Shown here: positions 3,710 to 40,041 of the stretch, one piece after another | Position numbering within the stretch: the first letter of the stretch is position 1 | Layout of the letters: each line of letters opens with the position of its first letter | Source: Deltaproteobacteria bacterium | GTDB taxonomy: Bacteria; Desulfobacterota; B13-G15; RBG-16-54-18 | Reading direction: 5' to 3' | Length of the DNA stretch: 40,187 nt | NCBI GenBank assembly: GCA_019308925.1 | Contig: JAFDHG010000034.1 | Coordinates: 1 to 40,187 of the forward strand | Position numbers and translations under genes: made by a program | Notes under the pieces: generated by a model | Told to the model about the DNA's origin: nothing | Databases searched by the model: none | What the model saw: the letters and a program-made list of their open reading frames with translations, nothing else

Positions 3710-4312
3710 ATGGGGAAGATAAGTCGTGCCTTGGTGAGTGTCTCGGACAAAAGGGGGGTGGTGGAGTTTGCTCAAGGGCTGGTTGATCTAGGGGTGGAGA
3801 TCCTCTCCACTGGCGGCACAGCCAAAAGCCTCAGGGAAAAGGGGATCCCGGTGATAGAGGTATCTGATTATACAGGTTTCCCTGAAATGTTGGAGGGGAG
3901 GGTAAAAAGCCTTCACCCCAAGATCCATGGGGGGATCTTGGGGAATCGGAGCAAGGAGGAGCACCTCTCCCAGATGATGGCACAGGGGATCAAGCCTATA
4001 GATATGGTGGTGGTAAACCTTTATCCCTTTGAGTCCACTGTGGCCAAGGAGGGCTGTACCCTTGAAGAGGCCATTGAGAACATCGACATCGGCGGCCCCA
4101 CCCTGATCAGGGCGGCAGCCAAGAACTCCCGAGATGTAACAGTGGTGGTCGATCCCGATGACTACCCCAAGTTGGCCCAAGAGCTGAAGGAGCATGGAGG
4201 GTCCATCTCCTTAAAGACCAACTTCGCGCTGGCGAAAAAGGCCTTCCGGCACACCCACCACTATGACGGGGTCATCGCCAGGTATCTGGACACGGTGAAG
4301 GTGGAAGGATGA
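3710..4312 (+). CDS. purH: IMP cyclohydrolase, stand-alone PurH N-terminal domain
   Basis: A 200-residue protein equal to the MGS-like IMP cyclohydrolase half of bifunctional PurH. It closes FAICAR to IMP, the last step of purine synthesis. Recognisable motifs are [59 protein letters not shown] and [17 protein letters not shown]. The AICAR formyltransferase domain that normally follows (about 300 residues) is missing, and the gene ends cleanly in an ATGA overlap with purD, so this looks like a natural single-domain form rather than truncation. AICAR transformylation must be encoded elsewhere. A perfect AAAGGAGGT lies five bases before the ATG. Confidence 0.93.
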
Positions 4313-17586: not shown

Positions 17587-17673
17587 AAGGGGTCAGGTCT
17601 TGCTTTTTGCTCCTCTTAAAAAGTGTTAGCGAGGTTTAACATAAAGATAGCAAAAAGCAAGACCTGACCCCTT
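17587..17673. repeat. Perfect 24-bp inverted repeat between murE and murF
   Basis: The 24 bases at 17587-17610 (AAGGGGTCAGGTCTTGCTTT and four more) are the exact reverse complement of 17650-17673, separated by 39 bases. The RNA would form a long stem of the size of a REP/BIME or MITE unit. GGGTCAGGTCTTG-type palindromes are reminiscent of REP elements mobilised by IS200-like RAYT transposases, but none is in the window. The right arm ends two bases before the murF ribosome site (GGAGGA, 17675-17680). Confidence 0.8.
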
Positions 17674-35781: not shown

Positions 35782-36059
35782 CTTCAAGACCTCCTCTTAT
35801 TTTTTCTGGCTATAATTTTCGGTCCTTTGATTATCTTTATCCATTTTAACATAAAATTTTGAGGGCAAACAGCAGGGTTAAGGCGACGGTTTTGCGAAGC
35901 AAAAAATTCCGCATAATCGGCTCACGAAAAGGCATCAGACCGGCTTTCCGAAACCCCCAAAAATCGAAAACAATAACACAAGGATTAACGCTTGAATGAT
36001 CCAGCCGATGATGCAAACCCCTACAGCGCGTAATGTGCTCCGATAGTCAAGGGCTTGCC
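35782..36059 (-). other. Intergenic stretch with gene remnant and attC-like sequence
   Basis: No intact gene. On the minus strand a frame ending at TGA near 35937 reads ALDYRSTLRAVGVCIIGWII then QALILVLLFSIFGGFGKPV; it is membrane-helix-like but has no start codon, so it may be the tail of a lost gene. It overlaps CAAGCGTTAAT, similar to the right end of integron attC sites. The string TTTTGCGAAGCAAAAA at 35890-35905 recurs exactly at 37180-37195 inside the better attC-like repeat. Confidence 0.4.
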
Positions 36060-36359: not shown

Positions 36360-37115
36360 CTATTTAAGTTCAAAACTTACTCTGACCCTTGCGTTGACAC
36401 TGATCTGACCAAGGGCAATACTACTTCCGGTTTCCAAAGGACCTCCACTGACATTTTGCATTACATTTTGGGCCATTCTCCTTCCACCTCCCCACCGTGA
36501 CCCCCACCAGCTATTATACCAATGCCACCAACCAGAATGTTCCTCACGAATGGTGTGAGGCTTGCCTATCTTTTGTCCAAGCTCCTTGGCCAAATCTTTT
36601 GCCTTTTCCTTGGCAGCCCTGATCGCAAGGGCACGTGCTTGGTCACGATACTCGCGGAGTTTTGTAGTCCGAAACTGGACTCCATGAACATAGTTGGCAC
36701 CGGCTTCGAGAGCACTGCTGAGAAGATCTTCAAACTTAGAGATATCTCTCAATCGAAAAACGATTGTCTTTCGTACAAAATAACCGATGAAGTTTTCGCG
36801 TGTATACCCATCTTTATACCGTGGTTCAATGCTGATGTGGTCTGTCTGAACATGTTTTGGTTCTATTTTGTACTTCTTGGCCAGAGCAAGGACCTTCTGT
36901 ACCCATTTGTCATTTTGCCTTTTCGCTATGGCAAGATCTTTATCCCATGTCTCCACTCCGAAGGTAAGAATGACCTCATCAGGAGCAACCCTGACCTCGG
37001 CATCACCAGTAACGGTAATGAGGCGTGGCCCTGGCTTATCTGCTGCACAAGCGGAAAATGAGAAAGCCAAAATGAGGACAAAAACAACAACACCCCTTCT
37101 CATGATTCCATGCAT
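36360..37115 (-). CDS. SIMPL-domain (DUF541) exported protein
   Basis: A 251-residue protein with an N-terminal signal (MRRGVVVFVLILAFSFSACA); FSAC is close to a lipobox, so it may be a lipoprotein or be cleaved by signal peptidase I. The mature part is a SIMPL/DUF541 domain: ITVTGDAEVRVAPDEVILTF at its start, GYFVRKTIVFRLRDISKFED in the middle, and ARALAIRAAKEKAKDLAKEL before the last strand SSIALGQISVNARVRVSFEL. A Trp-rich insert (GWWHWYNSWWGSRWGGG) before the end is unusual. SIMPL proteins act in the envelope, some in oxidative-stress tolerance, mechanism unclear. The start ATG 37115 has AAAGGAGGG 7 bases upstream. Flanked by attC-like repeats. Confidence 0.85.
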   Translation of the reverse strand: MHGIMRRGVVVFVLILAFSFSACAADKPGPRLITVTGDAEVRVAPDEVILTFGVETWDKDLAIAKRQNDKWVQKVLALAKKYKIEPKHVQTDHISIEPRYKDGYTRENFIGYFVRKTIVFRLRDISKFEDLLSSALEAGANYVHGVQFRTTKLREYRDQARALAIRAAKEKAKDLAKELGQKIGKPHTIREEHSGWWHWYNSWWGSRWGGGRRMAQNVMQNVSGGPLETGSSIALGQISVNARVRVSFELK

Positions 37116-37153
37116 CACTCATCCCTCCTTTCCTGATAAATTATCAGCATGTA

Positions 37154-37241
37154 TGTTAACGTTCCAGCATAAAAGATGTTTTTGCGAAGCAAAAATTCAG
37201 GTGAGTGCCGTAAGGCACGAACCTTTTATGCTGTGTTAGAT
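37154..37241 (-). repeat. Integron attC-like inverted repeat (88 bp)
   Basis: Read on the minus strand (gene direction): ATCTAAC (fits the R'' consensus RYYYAAC) at 37241-37235; the arm CAGCATAAAAG (37233-37223); a central region with two small hairpins (GTGCCTTACGGCAC and TTTTTGCTTCGCAAAAA); the perfectly complementary arm CTTTTATGCTG (37175-37165); then GAAC and GTTAACA (37160-37154), an imperfect R'. The upstream gene's TAA stop lies inside R'', as in many cassettes. Box order, spacing and CTTCGC loop resemble attC sites of gene cassettes, but no integrase is in the window. Confidence 0.5.
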
Positions 37242-38282
37242 GCTGCGACGTCGAACAGCTTCCTCTATCCATTCTCTTGCTTGTACTTCGTTTGTGAGCA
37301 TTCGGACATCATTATTCTCGATTTCAGCCATACAAGCACTAAAAACTACACGTATATCATCAGTATGTGCATGTGGGTGCAACGGATCAACGAAAAAGAC
37401 AACAATATGGCACCGACCAAACAGGATTTCTGTCGCAATCTCAATATCCCCGCCTTTTATCCCAGATAGGCACCTCCTGACTTTATTGAGTTCGCGTAGC
37501 TTCTTACAAGCGTTTTCGACATCTTGCCCTGTGGTTCCGGTTGCTAAAATATACCGGAACTTACTTAACTCATTTTCATATTGAATAGCAAAATCAACCA
37601 TCCGGCTTTTCATCGCATCATGGGCAATCAATGCTATTGTCTGTTTTTCAAACTGCGTGGTCCAAAACTCTTCAGAGTGCCTCTCACGTTTTGGTGATCT
37701 AACTTTGTAATATTTCTTGTTATATTCAAGTTCTGCCTCAGGCCAAGGGTTATCTGCCTCAGGGGTGCCCAAAGCTATCTTCAACGGTATTTCTTGAGGG
37801 TTTCGTCTAATGTCCCTTTTGGCCTCGTCACGAAACCAAGCCCTTACAGATTCAGCATTCATTAATCGCTTAGCATTCCATAGATCACAAAGCCGCATCA
37901 TGGCAAGATGCTCCGGGTTGAGCCAGTGTACTGTAATCGGGCTCAAAAAAGGCCAAATAATACTACATTGACGTTGTACAATTAGGTTAGCCAAAATCGT
38001 TACACCACCCTTCTTTCGATCAGGCAGAACTGTTGCATTGGATTTTATAAAGTTGCTTACGTCTTTTCTTATAGGTTTTAGGTCTCGTCTGGGCGGAACC
38101 TCTGTATCCTTTCCGAGCACTAAACGACTGAAAGTGCCTCCAGTGAAGAAAAAGTGAAACTCGCTCAACCTTTTCTTGTTGTTATTGTAAAGTTCCTCGA
38201 ATAGGCAAGCCAACTCGTTATTTTTTCTGACACTGTCATGGCTCGTAAGGACTGCAATCAGTGTTTTTCTAACTTTATCCAT
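37236..38282 (-). CDS. Tandem methylglyoxal-synthase-like protein (N-terminal domain degenerate)
   Basis: A 348-residue protein of two MGS-like domains. The C-terminal one (about 212-342) matches methylglyoxal synthase MgsA: IALIAHDAMKS, LATGTTG, SGIKGGDIEIA, VVFFVDPLHPHAHTDDIRV. The E. coli catalytic residues His19, Asp20, Asp71, Asp91, His98 and Asp101 correspond to His221, Asp222, Asp279, Asp299, His306 and Asp309. The N-terminal one (about 7-150) shows the same order (IAVLTSHDSVR, FFTGGTFSRL, KKGGVTILANLIV, WPFLSPITVHWLNPEHLAMM), but the GGD Asp is Val and the DPL Asp is Ser. MgsA converts dihydroxyacetone phosphate to methylglyoxal; whether this does is unknown. The start ATG 38282 is preceded by AGAGGTG. 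Confidence 0.8.
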   Translation of the reverse strand: MDKVRKTLIAVLTSHDSVRKNNELACLFEELYNNNKKRLSEFHFFFTGGTFSRLVLGKDTEVPPRRDLKPIRKDVSNFIKSNATVLPDRKKGGVTILANLIVQRQCSIIWPFLSPITVHWLNPEHLAMMRLCDLWNAKRLMNAESVRAWFRDEAKRDIRRNPQEIPLKIALGTPEADNPWPEAELEYNKKYYKVRSPKRERHSEEFWTTQFEKQTIALIAHDAMKSRMVDFAIQYENELSKFRYILATGTTGQDVENACKKLRELNKVRRCLSGIKGGDIEIATEILFGRCHIVVFFVDPLHPHAHTDDIRVVFSACMAEIENNDVRMLTNEVQAREWIEEAVRRRSI

Positions 38283-38329
38283 CTCAAACACCTCTTTGTT
38301 TTTTCTCCTCTACTAATAAGAACAAGACG

Positions 38330-38460: not shown

Positions 38461-38559
38461 CCACCGCCAAAAGGGGGCTAGAGCGGCAAAGACATCCATG
38501 GTGGGTTTGCCCTCAAGTATGTCTCTGTGAGGTATGGCTATAGTTGAAAAGGGTTTCAT
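38380..38559 (-). pseudogene. DUF499 ATPase, N-terminal stump
   Basis: A 59-codon frame whose first about 26 residues read MKPFSTIAIPHRDILEGKPT MDVFAA. This is the conserved opening of large DUF499 (COG1483-like) ATPases, where ..VAxPHxDILEGxLTMDVFAADLW.. leads into the P-loop region about 60 residues on. After MDVFAA the sequence (LAPFWRWKNSFFNYYQR..) no longer fits and the frame ends at TGA, so about 1000 residues are missing. A perfect AAGGAGGT is placed 7 bases upstream and the ATG overlaps the hepT stop (ATGA), so it was the fourth gene of the HepT/MntA operon. DUF499 proteins recur in anti-phage gene clusters with DUF1156 methylases. Confidence 0.65.
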
Positions 38560-38945
38560 TTCTCTACCTCCTTAGCTTTTTGAACAAAATCTTTTACAAT
38601 ATCTAACAATTTAACTATCTCCGCAAGTTCATCCTCTTTAATTTTATAGTATTCGTGAGCTATCAGATTTCTTAAAAACATCAGCCTTTTTGTAGCATTG
38701 AATATTTCATCCACCATCATCTGGTTTCGATGAAGCAGCTCAAATATTTCCCTGTAAGTTGACGGAAAGCCAAATCGCTTCTTGGTGACTATGTATTCCC
38801 CAATTTCAATAAGCGCATTCACAGCCTGAAAACATTCCATGGCAAGTGTGTTATATACAAGATAATCCGCAATATCTTTCTCAGTCAATTTTTTTGCATT
38901 CTCAAAGTGGTTCTCAAATCTAAGAATGTTTTCCAAAAGCTTCAT
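38556..38945 (-). CDS. hepT: HepT-like HEPN ribonuclease toxin (DUF86)
   Basis: A 129-residue all-helical HEPN protein. The catalytic RX4HXY motif is intact as RNLIAHEY (Arg92, His97, Tyr99). LAMECFQAVNALIEIGEYIV and STYREIFELLHRNQMM match the DUF86/HepT family. HepT is the toxin of type VII toxin-antitoxin pairs: an RNase neutralised when MntA attaches AMP units to the motif's Tyr. The start ATG 38945 is chosen because AGAGGTG precedes it and it overlaps the mntA stop as ATGA; the frame is open 12 codons more. It is followed, again by ATGA, by the DUF499 stump. Confidence 0.92.
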   Translation of the reverse strand: MKLLENILRFENHFENAKKLTEKDIADYLVYNTLAMECFQAVNALIEIGEYIVTKKRFGFPSTYREIFELLHRNQMMVDEIFNATKRLMFLRNLIAHEYYKIKEDELAEIVKLLDIVKDFVQKAKEVEK

Positions 38946-39349
38946 CTTAACACCTCTGATGCTATTCTTTGGTAAATCCATGAAGTCTCCAAGTAATTCC
39001 TCAAAACTTCCAATTTTTTCTCAAAGAGATATTCCTCATCTCTACTGAAGATCTCTCTTCCATATTTTAAGACTTCAAACTGGATATGAACTGGAAGACG
39101 GTGGAAGAGCACAACATCAATTTCTTGGGAATATAGGCTTCCGATTTCAGCCTCTGCTTCAGGATCAGGATTCTTCAGAATTACTGCTATGTCCACATCA
39201 GATAATGGTTTTTCTGTATCTTTTGCATAAGAACCAAAGAGAAATACTGCTACTGCTTTGGAACAGGTTTTTATCTGCTCCACTATCTTCTCCAACAATC
39301 CTTCGAGTATATCCGCATCGGATATTGTTTTGATTGAGAAATTCCTCAT
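38942..39349 (-). CDS. mntA: MntA-like nucleotidyltransferase antitoxin
   Basis: A 135-residue minimal nucleotidyltransferase. The signature GS-X10-DxD reads GSYAKDTEKPLSDVDIAV (Gly39, Ser40, Asp51, Asp53), with a third Asp in SQEIDVVLFHRLP (Asp78), as needed for two-metal AMP transfer. MntA antitoxins inactivate HepT by AMPylating the Tyr of its RX4HXY motif. The unusually complete active site suggests a functional pair. It overlaps the upstream unknown gene and hepT by ATGA at both ends, so the three genes are translationally coupled. Confidence 0.92.
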   Translation of the reverse strand: MRNFSIKTISDADILEGLLEKIVEQIKTCSKAVAVFLFGSYAKDTEKPLSDVDIAVILKNPDPEAEAEIGSLYSQEIDVVLFHRLPVHIQFEVLKYGREIFSRDEEYLFEKKLEVLRNYLETSWIYQRIASEVLR

Positions 39350-39684
39350 TTTCCCACCTCTCTTTTAATAAAATCTTCCAAGTCTGTTTCAAATCTATCC
39401 TTGAAAGCCTTTTCTGCAAGTTTTTTAAATTCTGGCTCAATATAAAGTATTTCTGCTGTGTGTTTGCCAAGTTTCGGAGTCAAAACACTCTGCCCATTTA
39501 CATAGACAATATGAGATGCCCAGGGTTTACCCCGTGAGATATCTTCTCCTATCTCACGGGGTGAAAGTTCTTTGATGATAAATTCCTTATCTCCTTTAAA
39601 CTCATCCTCGCTCCAATTATCTTTGTATTCTCTCCAGACAATAGCTATATCCTTTCCCTCTTTTTCACCAAGAAAGGAAGCCAT
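39346..39684 (-). CDS. Unknown 112-residue protein, first gene of the HepT/MntA operon
   Basis: No family recognised. The protein is charged and soluble, without signal or membrane segments: DIAIVWREYKDNWSEDEFKG, then KELSPREIGEDISRGKPWAS, YVNGQSVLTPKLGKHTAEIL and a helical Lys/Glu-rich end (PEFKKLAEKAFKDRFETDLE). It overlaps mntA by ATGA, so it is a third member of the toxin-antitoxin operon. The coding sequence contains a perfect 12-bp palindrome (39530-39541 with 39550-39561) that can extend to about 16 bp with one G-U pair. The start is ATG 39684; TTG at 39687 is an alternative, and the ribosome site is weak. It could be an accessory antitoxin, a regulator or part of the lost DUF499 system. 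Confidence 0.6.
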   Translation of the reverse strand: MASFLGEKEGKDIAIVWREYKDNWSEDEFKGDKEFIIKELSPREIGEDISRGKPWASHIVYVNGQSVLTPKLGKHTAEILYIEPEFKKLAEKAFKDRFETDLEDFIKREVGK

Positions 39685-40041
39685 CAAGGAGTTTCTTCCT
39701 TTATATTACAAAGGAATTTTACAGGGGACGAAAAGAAAAGACCTTTTTGCCAAAGGTCTCAACATGAAAACGGATTGCAGACTCTGCTACAATCTTATAT
39801 TGCCTCATAAAATCCCCCCTTCTCTGATACTTCACAATAACAATGGTACCATATTCTTTGATTTTTCAAGAGCGAGAATATTCCTTTCAGCCTCCCTTTT
39901 CGCTACAAAATTTTCCCACAATTTTTCCAAATTGTCAAATTATTTTGGTTTTATTGAAGGGCAATGAAAGCCTTCATTGGCTTTAAACTTGAAGAGAAAG
40001 ACCAAGGGGGGTACCATGTACCGTCTCATCCTAATTAAACC
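39685..40041. other. AT-rich upstream region of the HepT/MntA operon
   Basis: No credible gene in 357 bases. It should hold the operon's promoter, but no box pair close to consensus stands out. AGACCTTT-TTGCC-AAAGGTCT (39739-39759) is a perfect 8-bp stem about 55 bases upstream of the start codon, possibly an operator or leader hairpin. AAAGCC-TTCATT-GGCTTT (near 39967-39984) is a second small stem. Confidence 0.4.

Follow-up and report, generated by a model that had tools for sequence, protein, structure and literature searches.

The last four kilobases of the window, by which we mean the whole 40,187-nucleotide stretch of DNA that was analysed, hold a gene for a tandem methylglyoxal synthase (MGS)-like protein, set between a gene for a SIMPL/DUF541 protein and a pair of genes with HEPN and minimal nucleotidyltransferase motifs (Table 1). 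The ATG start at 38282 is preceded by an AGAGGTG ribosome-binding site, with an in-frame GTG at 38291, and the stop codon is TAA. The encoded 348-residue chain carries two MGS domains, not the single one that characterizes MgsA. In an AlphaFold model of the full chain (pLDDT 77), the order of strands and helices is identical in the N-half and the C-half; Foldseek searches with this model returned MGS matches of ~130 columns, corresponding to one domain, evidently the C-half. The initial annotation had described a fused pair of MGS domains, with an active-looking C-half and a pseudo-enzyme N-half, and this description is borne out by NCBIfam and profile matches and by residue comparison, as well as by the structure prediction that it had proposed as a check.

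Table 1. Features at and around the tandem MGS gene (window positions).
Feature	Positions	Strand	Remarks
SIMPL/DUF541 protein, downstream neighbour	36360..37118	(-)	low GC3 too
Structured element at the gene's 3' end	37150..37240	(-)	attC-like; 11-bp stem CAGCATAAAAG/CTTTTATGCTG
Tandem MGS-like protein, whole gene	37236..38282	(-)	348 aa plus stop, ATG start
C-half, residues 214-345	37248..37643	(-)	MGS domain, full active-site set
Linker, residues 161-213	37644..37802	(-)	low model confidence; 22% amino acid identity to orthologue
N-half, residues 5-160	37803..38270	(-)	degenerate MGS domain with GGV and SPI; His98 is L, Asp101 is E
Broken DUF499 ATPase gene, first 26 codons	38482..38559	(-)	overlaps HepT stop codon by ATGA
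HepT-like HEPN ribonuclease	38556..38981	(-)	RNLIAHEY (Rx4HxY) motif
MntA-like minimal nucleotidyltransferase	38942..39349	(-)	GSx10DxD motif (GS-x10-DVD)

The C-half matched NCBIfam model NF003559 (E=9e-31; 106.5 bits, above the cut-off of 84), and PDB entries for MGS aligned with residues 216-340 of the protein (best 4e-15). Its score against TIGR00160 was below the cut-off (89.8 versus 146.9 bits). A PF02142 search of each half, suggested earlier as a check, gave a mixed outcome: the C-half fell short of the Pfam cut-off of 24.1 in the window protein (19.4-22.4 bits) and passed it in the one orthologue described below (32.3 bits), and the N-half had no Pfam match. Residues H221, D222, K225, T248-G-T-T-G252, S273-G274, G277-G278-D279, D299-P300, H306, and D309 occupy canonical invariant positions, such that the E. 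coli set (H19, D20, K23, T45-G49, S65-G66, D71, D91, H98, and D101) is fully present, in agreement with the earlier claim that the E. coli MgsA catalytic positions are kept in the C-terminal domain. The active-site roles of D20, D91, and D101 are established background; those of the remaining MgsA residues in the set are described in PMC7843640. In the orthologue, the sole change to this set is R for G46 (ATRTTG for ATGTTG). The window C-half is nevertheless divergent, scoring 76 bits where the phylum's full-length canonical MgsAs mostly score 180-266, and has GIKGGD in place of GP.GGD. Judging from the retained residues, the C-half most likely converts dihydroxyacetone phosphate (DHAP) to methylglyoxal, with an activity that could be altered, given its divergence.

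Searched alone, the N-half matched only two NCBIfam models, TIGR00160 (2.2e-4) and NF003559 (3.5e-4), both of them MGS models. We also built a custom MGS profile from 29 MgsAs, against which the N-halves of the window protein and its orthologue scored 18.5 and 17.2 bits, respectively, compared with 5.8 bits for the best of 4000 shuffled N-halves. Alignment of the N-half with MgsA by hhalign (6e-5) and a profile-profile comparison with its own C-half concur. A match of this half to another fold would have counted against the pseudo-enzyme reading, and none appeared among the NCBIfam matches. By these comparisons, the N-half is a remote second MGS domain. An AlphaFold run on the isolated N-half (two sequences) reached a pLDDT of only 38, so the fold of this half in the full-chain model is supportive but not independent evidence.

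In the N-halves of both the window protein and its orthologue, the catalytic base Asp71 is replaced by valine (V94, turning GGD into GGV) and His98 by leucine (L121). Further losses affect D101 (E124), the phosphate lysine K23 (R or E), and S65-G66 (D88-R89); the TGTTG loop is reduced to TGGTF, and there is an extra insertion of ~20 residues around residues 57-80. On residue comparison, then, the catalytic base and His98 are gone from the N-half, as are most of the residues that bind phosphate. The GGV and SPI motifs in this domain were as annotated. An HD pair, said to be kept here, is indeed present in the window protein but is not a feature of the family, as the orthologue has WD; the orthologue also keeps the DP aspartate where the window N-half reads SPI. 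The most conserved part of the N-half, residues 84-142, covers the loops of the former active-site pocket and not the outer helices alone, and the conserved pocket motif reads LPDR..GGVT..AN..V.RQCSIIWPFL.P...HWLNPE.LA..RLCD.W.

A single full-length orthologue was found in the collections searched, in a metagenome-assembled genome of an uncultured member of the Bryobacteraceae (Acidobacteriota; locus L004). It is 50% identical to the window protein and has both halves, on an unrelated contig, which rules out a frameshift or fusion artefact joining two genes. In an MGS tree, the two N-halves pair and the two C-halves pair, as separate and fully supported clades, indicating that the halves were already fused before these lineages separated; the N-half branch is very long, and the tree fixes these pairs, not the relation of N-half to C-half. 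Between window and orthologue, identities at codon positions 1/2/3 were 0.54/0.70/0.42 for the N-half, 0.69/0.84/0.30 for the C-half, and 0.36/0.42/0.31 for the linker. For this family, defined by two sequences only, the codon pattern indicates that both halves are under purifying selection and the linker far less so. The N-half is thus a maintained pseudo-enzyme, not debris.

We then asked how common the architecture is. An MgsA-type match was present in 39 of 395 genomes of the window's phylum, with the tandem form in the window protein alone: the 42 other MgsA places in this sample had a single MGS match per frame, and the one frame of 411 residues among them runs from stop to stop with MGS at its end only. 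A row for genome G154 in the N-half profile search of the 395 genomes was discarded as a chance match containing stops. No further tandem case came from a full-protein search of 99 relatives, no tandem architecture was seen in a 23-genome class, and no N-half homologues were found in plasmids, phages, or IMG/VR. Together these searches rule out a widespread tandem family; two-domain homologues that were widespread housekeeping enzymes would have undercut the initial annotation, and the surveyed collections held the one orthologue. None of the other MgsAs in this survey had the tandem pseudo-domain architecture, and the literature searched contained no papers on a tandem or pseudo-domain MgsA. 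We conclude that the tandem MGS is a genuine and rare form of a known enzyme. It is also the sole MgsA-type protein detected in its genome, and may therefore carry the cell's MGS activity. The other MGS-like domains of this genome belong to one PurH-type and one CarB-sized protein, and a search of the genome for a glyoxalase I partner gave no matches over the cut-off. Elsewhere in the window (3710-4312, plus strand), a PurH-type protein of 200 residues, encoded directly before purD, combines an MGS domain with a match to the first 59 AICARFT model positions; it is apparently a stand-alone IMP cyclohydrolase.

The tandem gene was predicted to lie in accessory DNA, and base composition supports this. 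GC3 is 0.35-0.43 over the last four kilobases (the SIMPL, tandem, HepT, and MntA genes; 0.40 for the tandem gene), compared with 0.66-0.72 for core genes, marking the segment as accessory. The rest of the contig is mostly housekeeping (e.g., purD, a Mur ligase, and NAD synthetase), making a contaminating contig unlikely. In the HEPN-MNT region (38556-39687, minus strand), the pair is preceded by an overlapping ORF of 113 codons that has no Pfam or PADLOC match. The fragment between the pair and the tandem gene aligns with four plasmid proteins (three carry the DUF499 annotation) from their starts and ending at the same residue in each, through matches that are short and individually weak. DUF499 ATPases are the centres of BREX-related defence systems (PMC12839542). 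These alignments indicate that a defence-type DUF499 ATPase was lost at this point. The neighbouring toxin-antitoxin or defence "remnant" of the initial annotation is thus only partly accurate: the gene does adjoin a HEPN-MNT pair, but that pair is intact by motif, and the broken gene is the DUF499 one, of which the start is left.

This setting bears on the suggestion that methylglyoxal production serves defence, for instance by forming the toxic product upon phage infection together with the HEPN-MNT module. An intact pair on the same strand, with the tandem gene 274 bases downstream, and the accessory location would suit such a role. The broken DUF499 start in the intergenic DNA makes the adjacency look like a product of rearrangement, however, and the position of the tandem gene just past the rearrangement point already accounts for its having defence genes nearby. 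Examining the neighbours of two-domain homologues, the check proposed for this idea, told against it: the orthologous gene has a FliW-like gene on one side and a PadR-ABC permease pair on the other, a flagellin gene also near (neighbours named by eye from translations), and no toxin-antitoxin or defence genes beside it. No PADLOC model matched the tandem protein, and the N-half is absent from the plasmids and phages searched. We therefore regard a defence or toxin role as very improbable.

A further question is whether the gene was once an integron cassette. Repeats like attC had been placed on both sides of it, which is half right: there is a structured element at its 3' end, but we found neither an upstream element nor an array. 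The first box of the 3' element, ATCTAAC, fits the attC consensus RYYYAAC and includes the stop codon, an arrangement seen in many cassettes; at the far end (GTTAACA) only the GTT core is present. This 90-base element folds better than shuffled sequences (z -4.15), whereas the upstream stretch taken for a second element does not (z -0.87). A strict R-box/L-box scan for attC found nothing above background but also misses the visible 3' element, which makes its negative outcome weak evidence. The genome does encode a full integron integrase near a contig end (C25:25963-26895; L109 7958-9196; 404 bits, cut-off 265), and a second, shortened copy lies at C11:15020-15412; the end of the tandem gene's contig and that of the integrase contig share no words of 14 bases or more. 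The locus therefore resembles an integron gene cassette in its low-GC gene, in a stop codon that falls within an RYYYAAC box of the 3' structure, and in an integrase elsewhere in the genome, and differs from one in having no second matching site, array, or link to the integrase contig. A cassette origin is possible on these features. A small hairpin, TTTTTGCTTCGCAAAAA, present at 37175-37191 and 35885-35905 of the window and around 772-796 of L018, recurs at several places in the genome.

How would a live and a dead MGS domain work in one chain? We think it probable, with moderate confidence, that the protein is a two-domain MGS in which the C-half makes methylglyoxal and the N-half is a regulatory or structural partner in cis. 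The C-half would convert DHAP to methylglyoxal and phosphate by normal MgsA chemistry, as its retained residues suggest. The N-half would be an ancient sister domain that lost catalysis, kept the fold, and was retained in cis; that it matches the C-half in age within this lineage and is still under constraint speaks for a function of some kind. Three chains would most likely assemble into a single MGS-like pseudo-hexamer in which three sites are live and three dead, and the dead site, with its own pocket motif, may either bind an effector or simply hold the live site in shape. We favour a regulatory or ligand-sensing role for the N-half. In its strongest form, a self-regulated enzyme whose dead domain senses a metabolite other than DHAP or phosphate and gates methylglyoxal production in cis, this idea is tentative. 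A purely structural N-half, which would bind no effector and supply half the interfaces in the hexamer of an obligate tandem enzyme, is likewise possible but doubtful. It would agree with the hexameric state of MGS enzymes (multi-chain PDB entries; hexamer modelling, PMC7843640), with the common release of one copy from catalysis after tandem fusion, and with the matching element order of the two modelled halves, but would leave unexplained why conservation peaks over the pocket loops (residues 84-142), with a motif unlike that of MGS.

Two further alternatives concern activity itself. The N-half might have acquired a catalytic activity towards some other substrate, phosphorylated or carboxylated. 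In its favour, polar residues of the pocket region (D16, T47/T50, D88-R89, N99, R104, H119, N122, and E124) are strongly conserved in both orthologues; with valine at the general-base position in both, matches to MGS only, and no homologues with another activity found, we consider this unlikely. Conversely, MGS activity might have been lost from the whole protein, leaving a chain that serves in binding or sensing, or an accessory gene in the course of being lost. The divergence of the C-half, the accessory setting with a broken DUF499 gene adjoining, and a GC3 well below that of core genes are what such a protein might display, but the active-site residues are retained in both C-halves, and identity of 0.84 at second positions with third positions saturated points to ongoing purifying selection. 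We judge this, too, to be improbable.

The two-domain reading can be set beside several known systems. The C-half resembles MgsA (EC 4.2.3.3; NF003559, TIGR00160; PDB 1b93, 1wo8, 6f2c) in fold, active-site set, and sequence family, and the N-half is a remote homologue of it with the same element order. Canonical MgsA differs in having one domain of about 120-170 residues, where here there are two, one without the catalytic base, and the E. coli type has a long C-terminal tail that the C-half is missing. The PF02142 domains of CarB (allosteric) and PurH (IMP cyclohydrolase) belong to the same superfamily, and in CarB a non-catalytic MGS-like domain acts as a ligand-sensing regulator; unlike these domains, the N-half matches MgsA models, with no PurH or CarB models among its matches, and is joined to an MGS enzyme, not to a synthetase or transformylase. 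MgsA of B. subtilis is reportedly controlled by a partner protein, Crh (6f2c; Dickmanns 2018, listed among the references of PMC7843640); Crh is an HPr-like protein. Control by a bound protein partner, putative here, would be common to both cases, with the difference that the partner here would be a fused sister domain. Because methylglyoxal is toxic, how bacteria gate MgsA is a real question; inhibition by phosphate is one answer known so far, and Crh, in Bacillus, is the other. If correct, our reading would provide a simple and testable case in which a dead paralogue controls a live MGS in cis, and one more MGS-like sensor domain beside the few known, such as that of CarB, with a reach limited by the family's two members.

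Three observations fall outside this argument. There was little in the literature searched on phage-borne methylglyoxal synthases; in the viral collection, we saw MgsA relatives on at least 338 stretches (IMG/VR, e.g., L021-L100), some of them on contigs of about 270 kb, and these matches make phage-borne enzymes possible. The contig end (40100-40187) carries a GC-rich palindrome, AAAGCCCCGCCTTTAGAGCGGGG, that resembles an IS200/IS605-type or REP-like end. Finally, a perfect 25-bp inverted repeat, AAGGGGTCAGGTCTTGCTTTTTGCT, lies between two genes at window positions 17587-17673 and has 15 matches across the genome, located on contigs C12, C30, C34, and C76, identifying it as a member of a dispersed palindromic repeat family.
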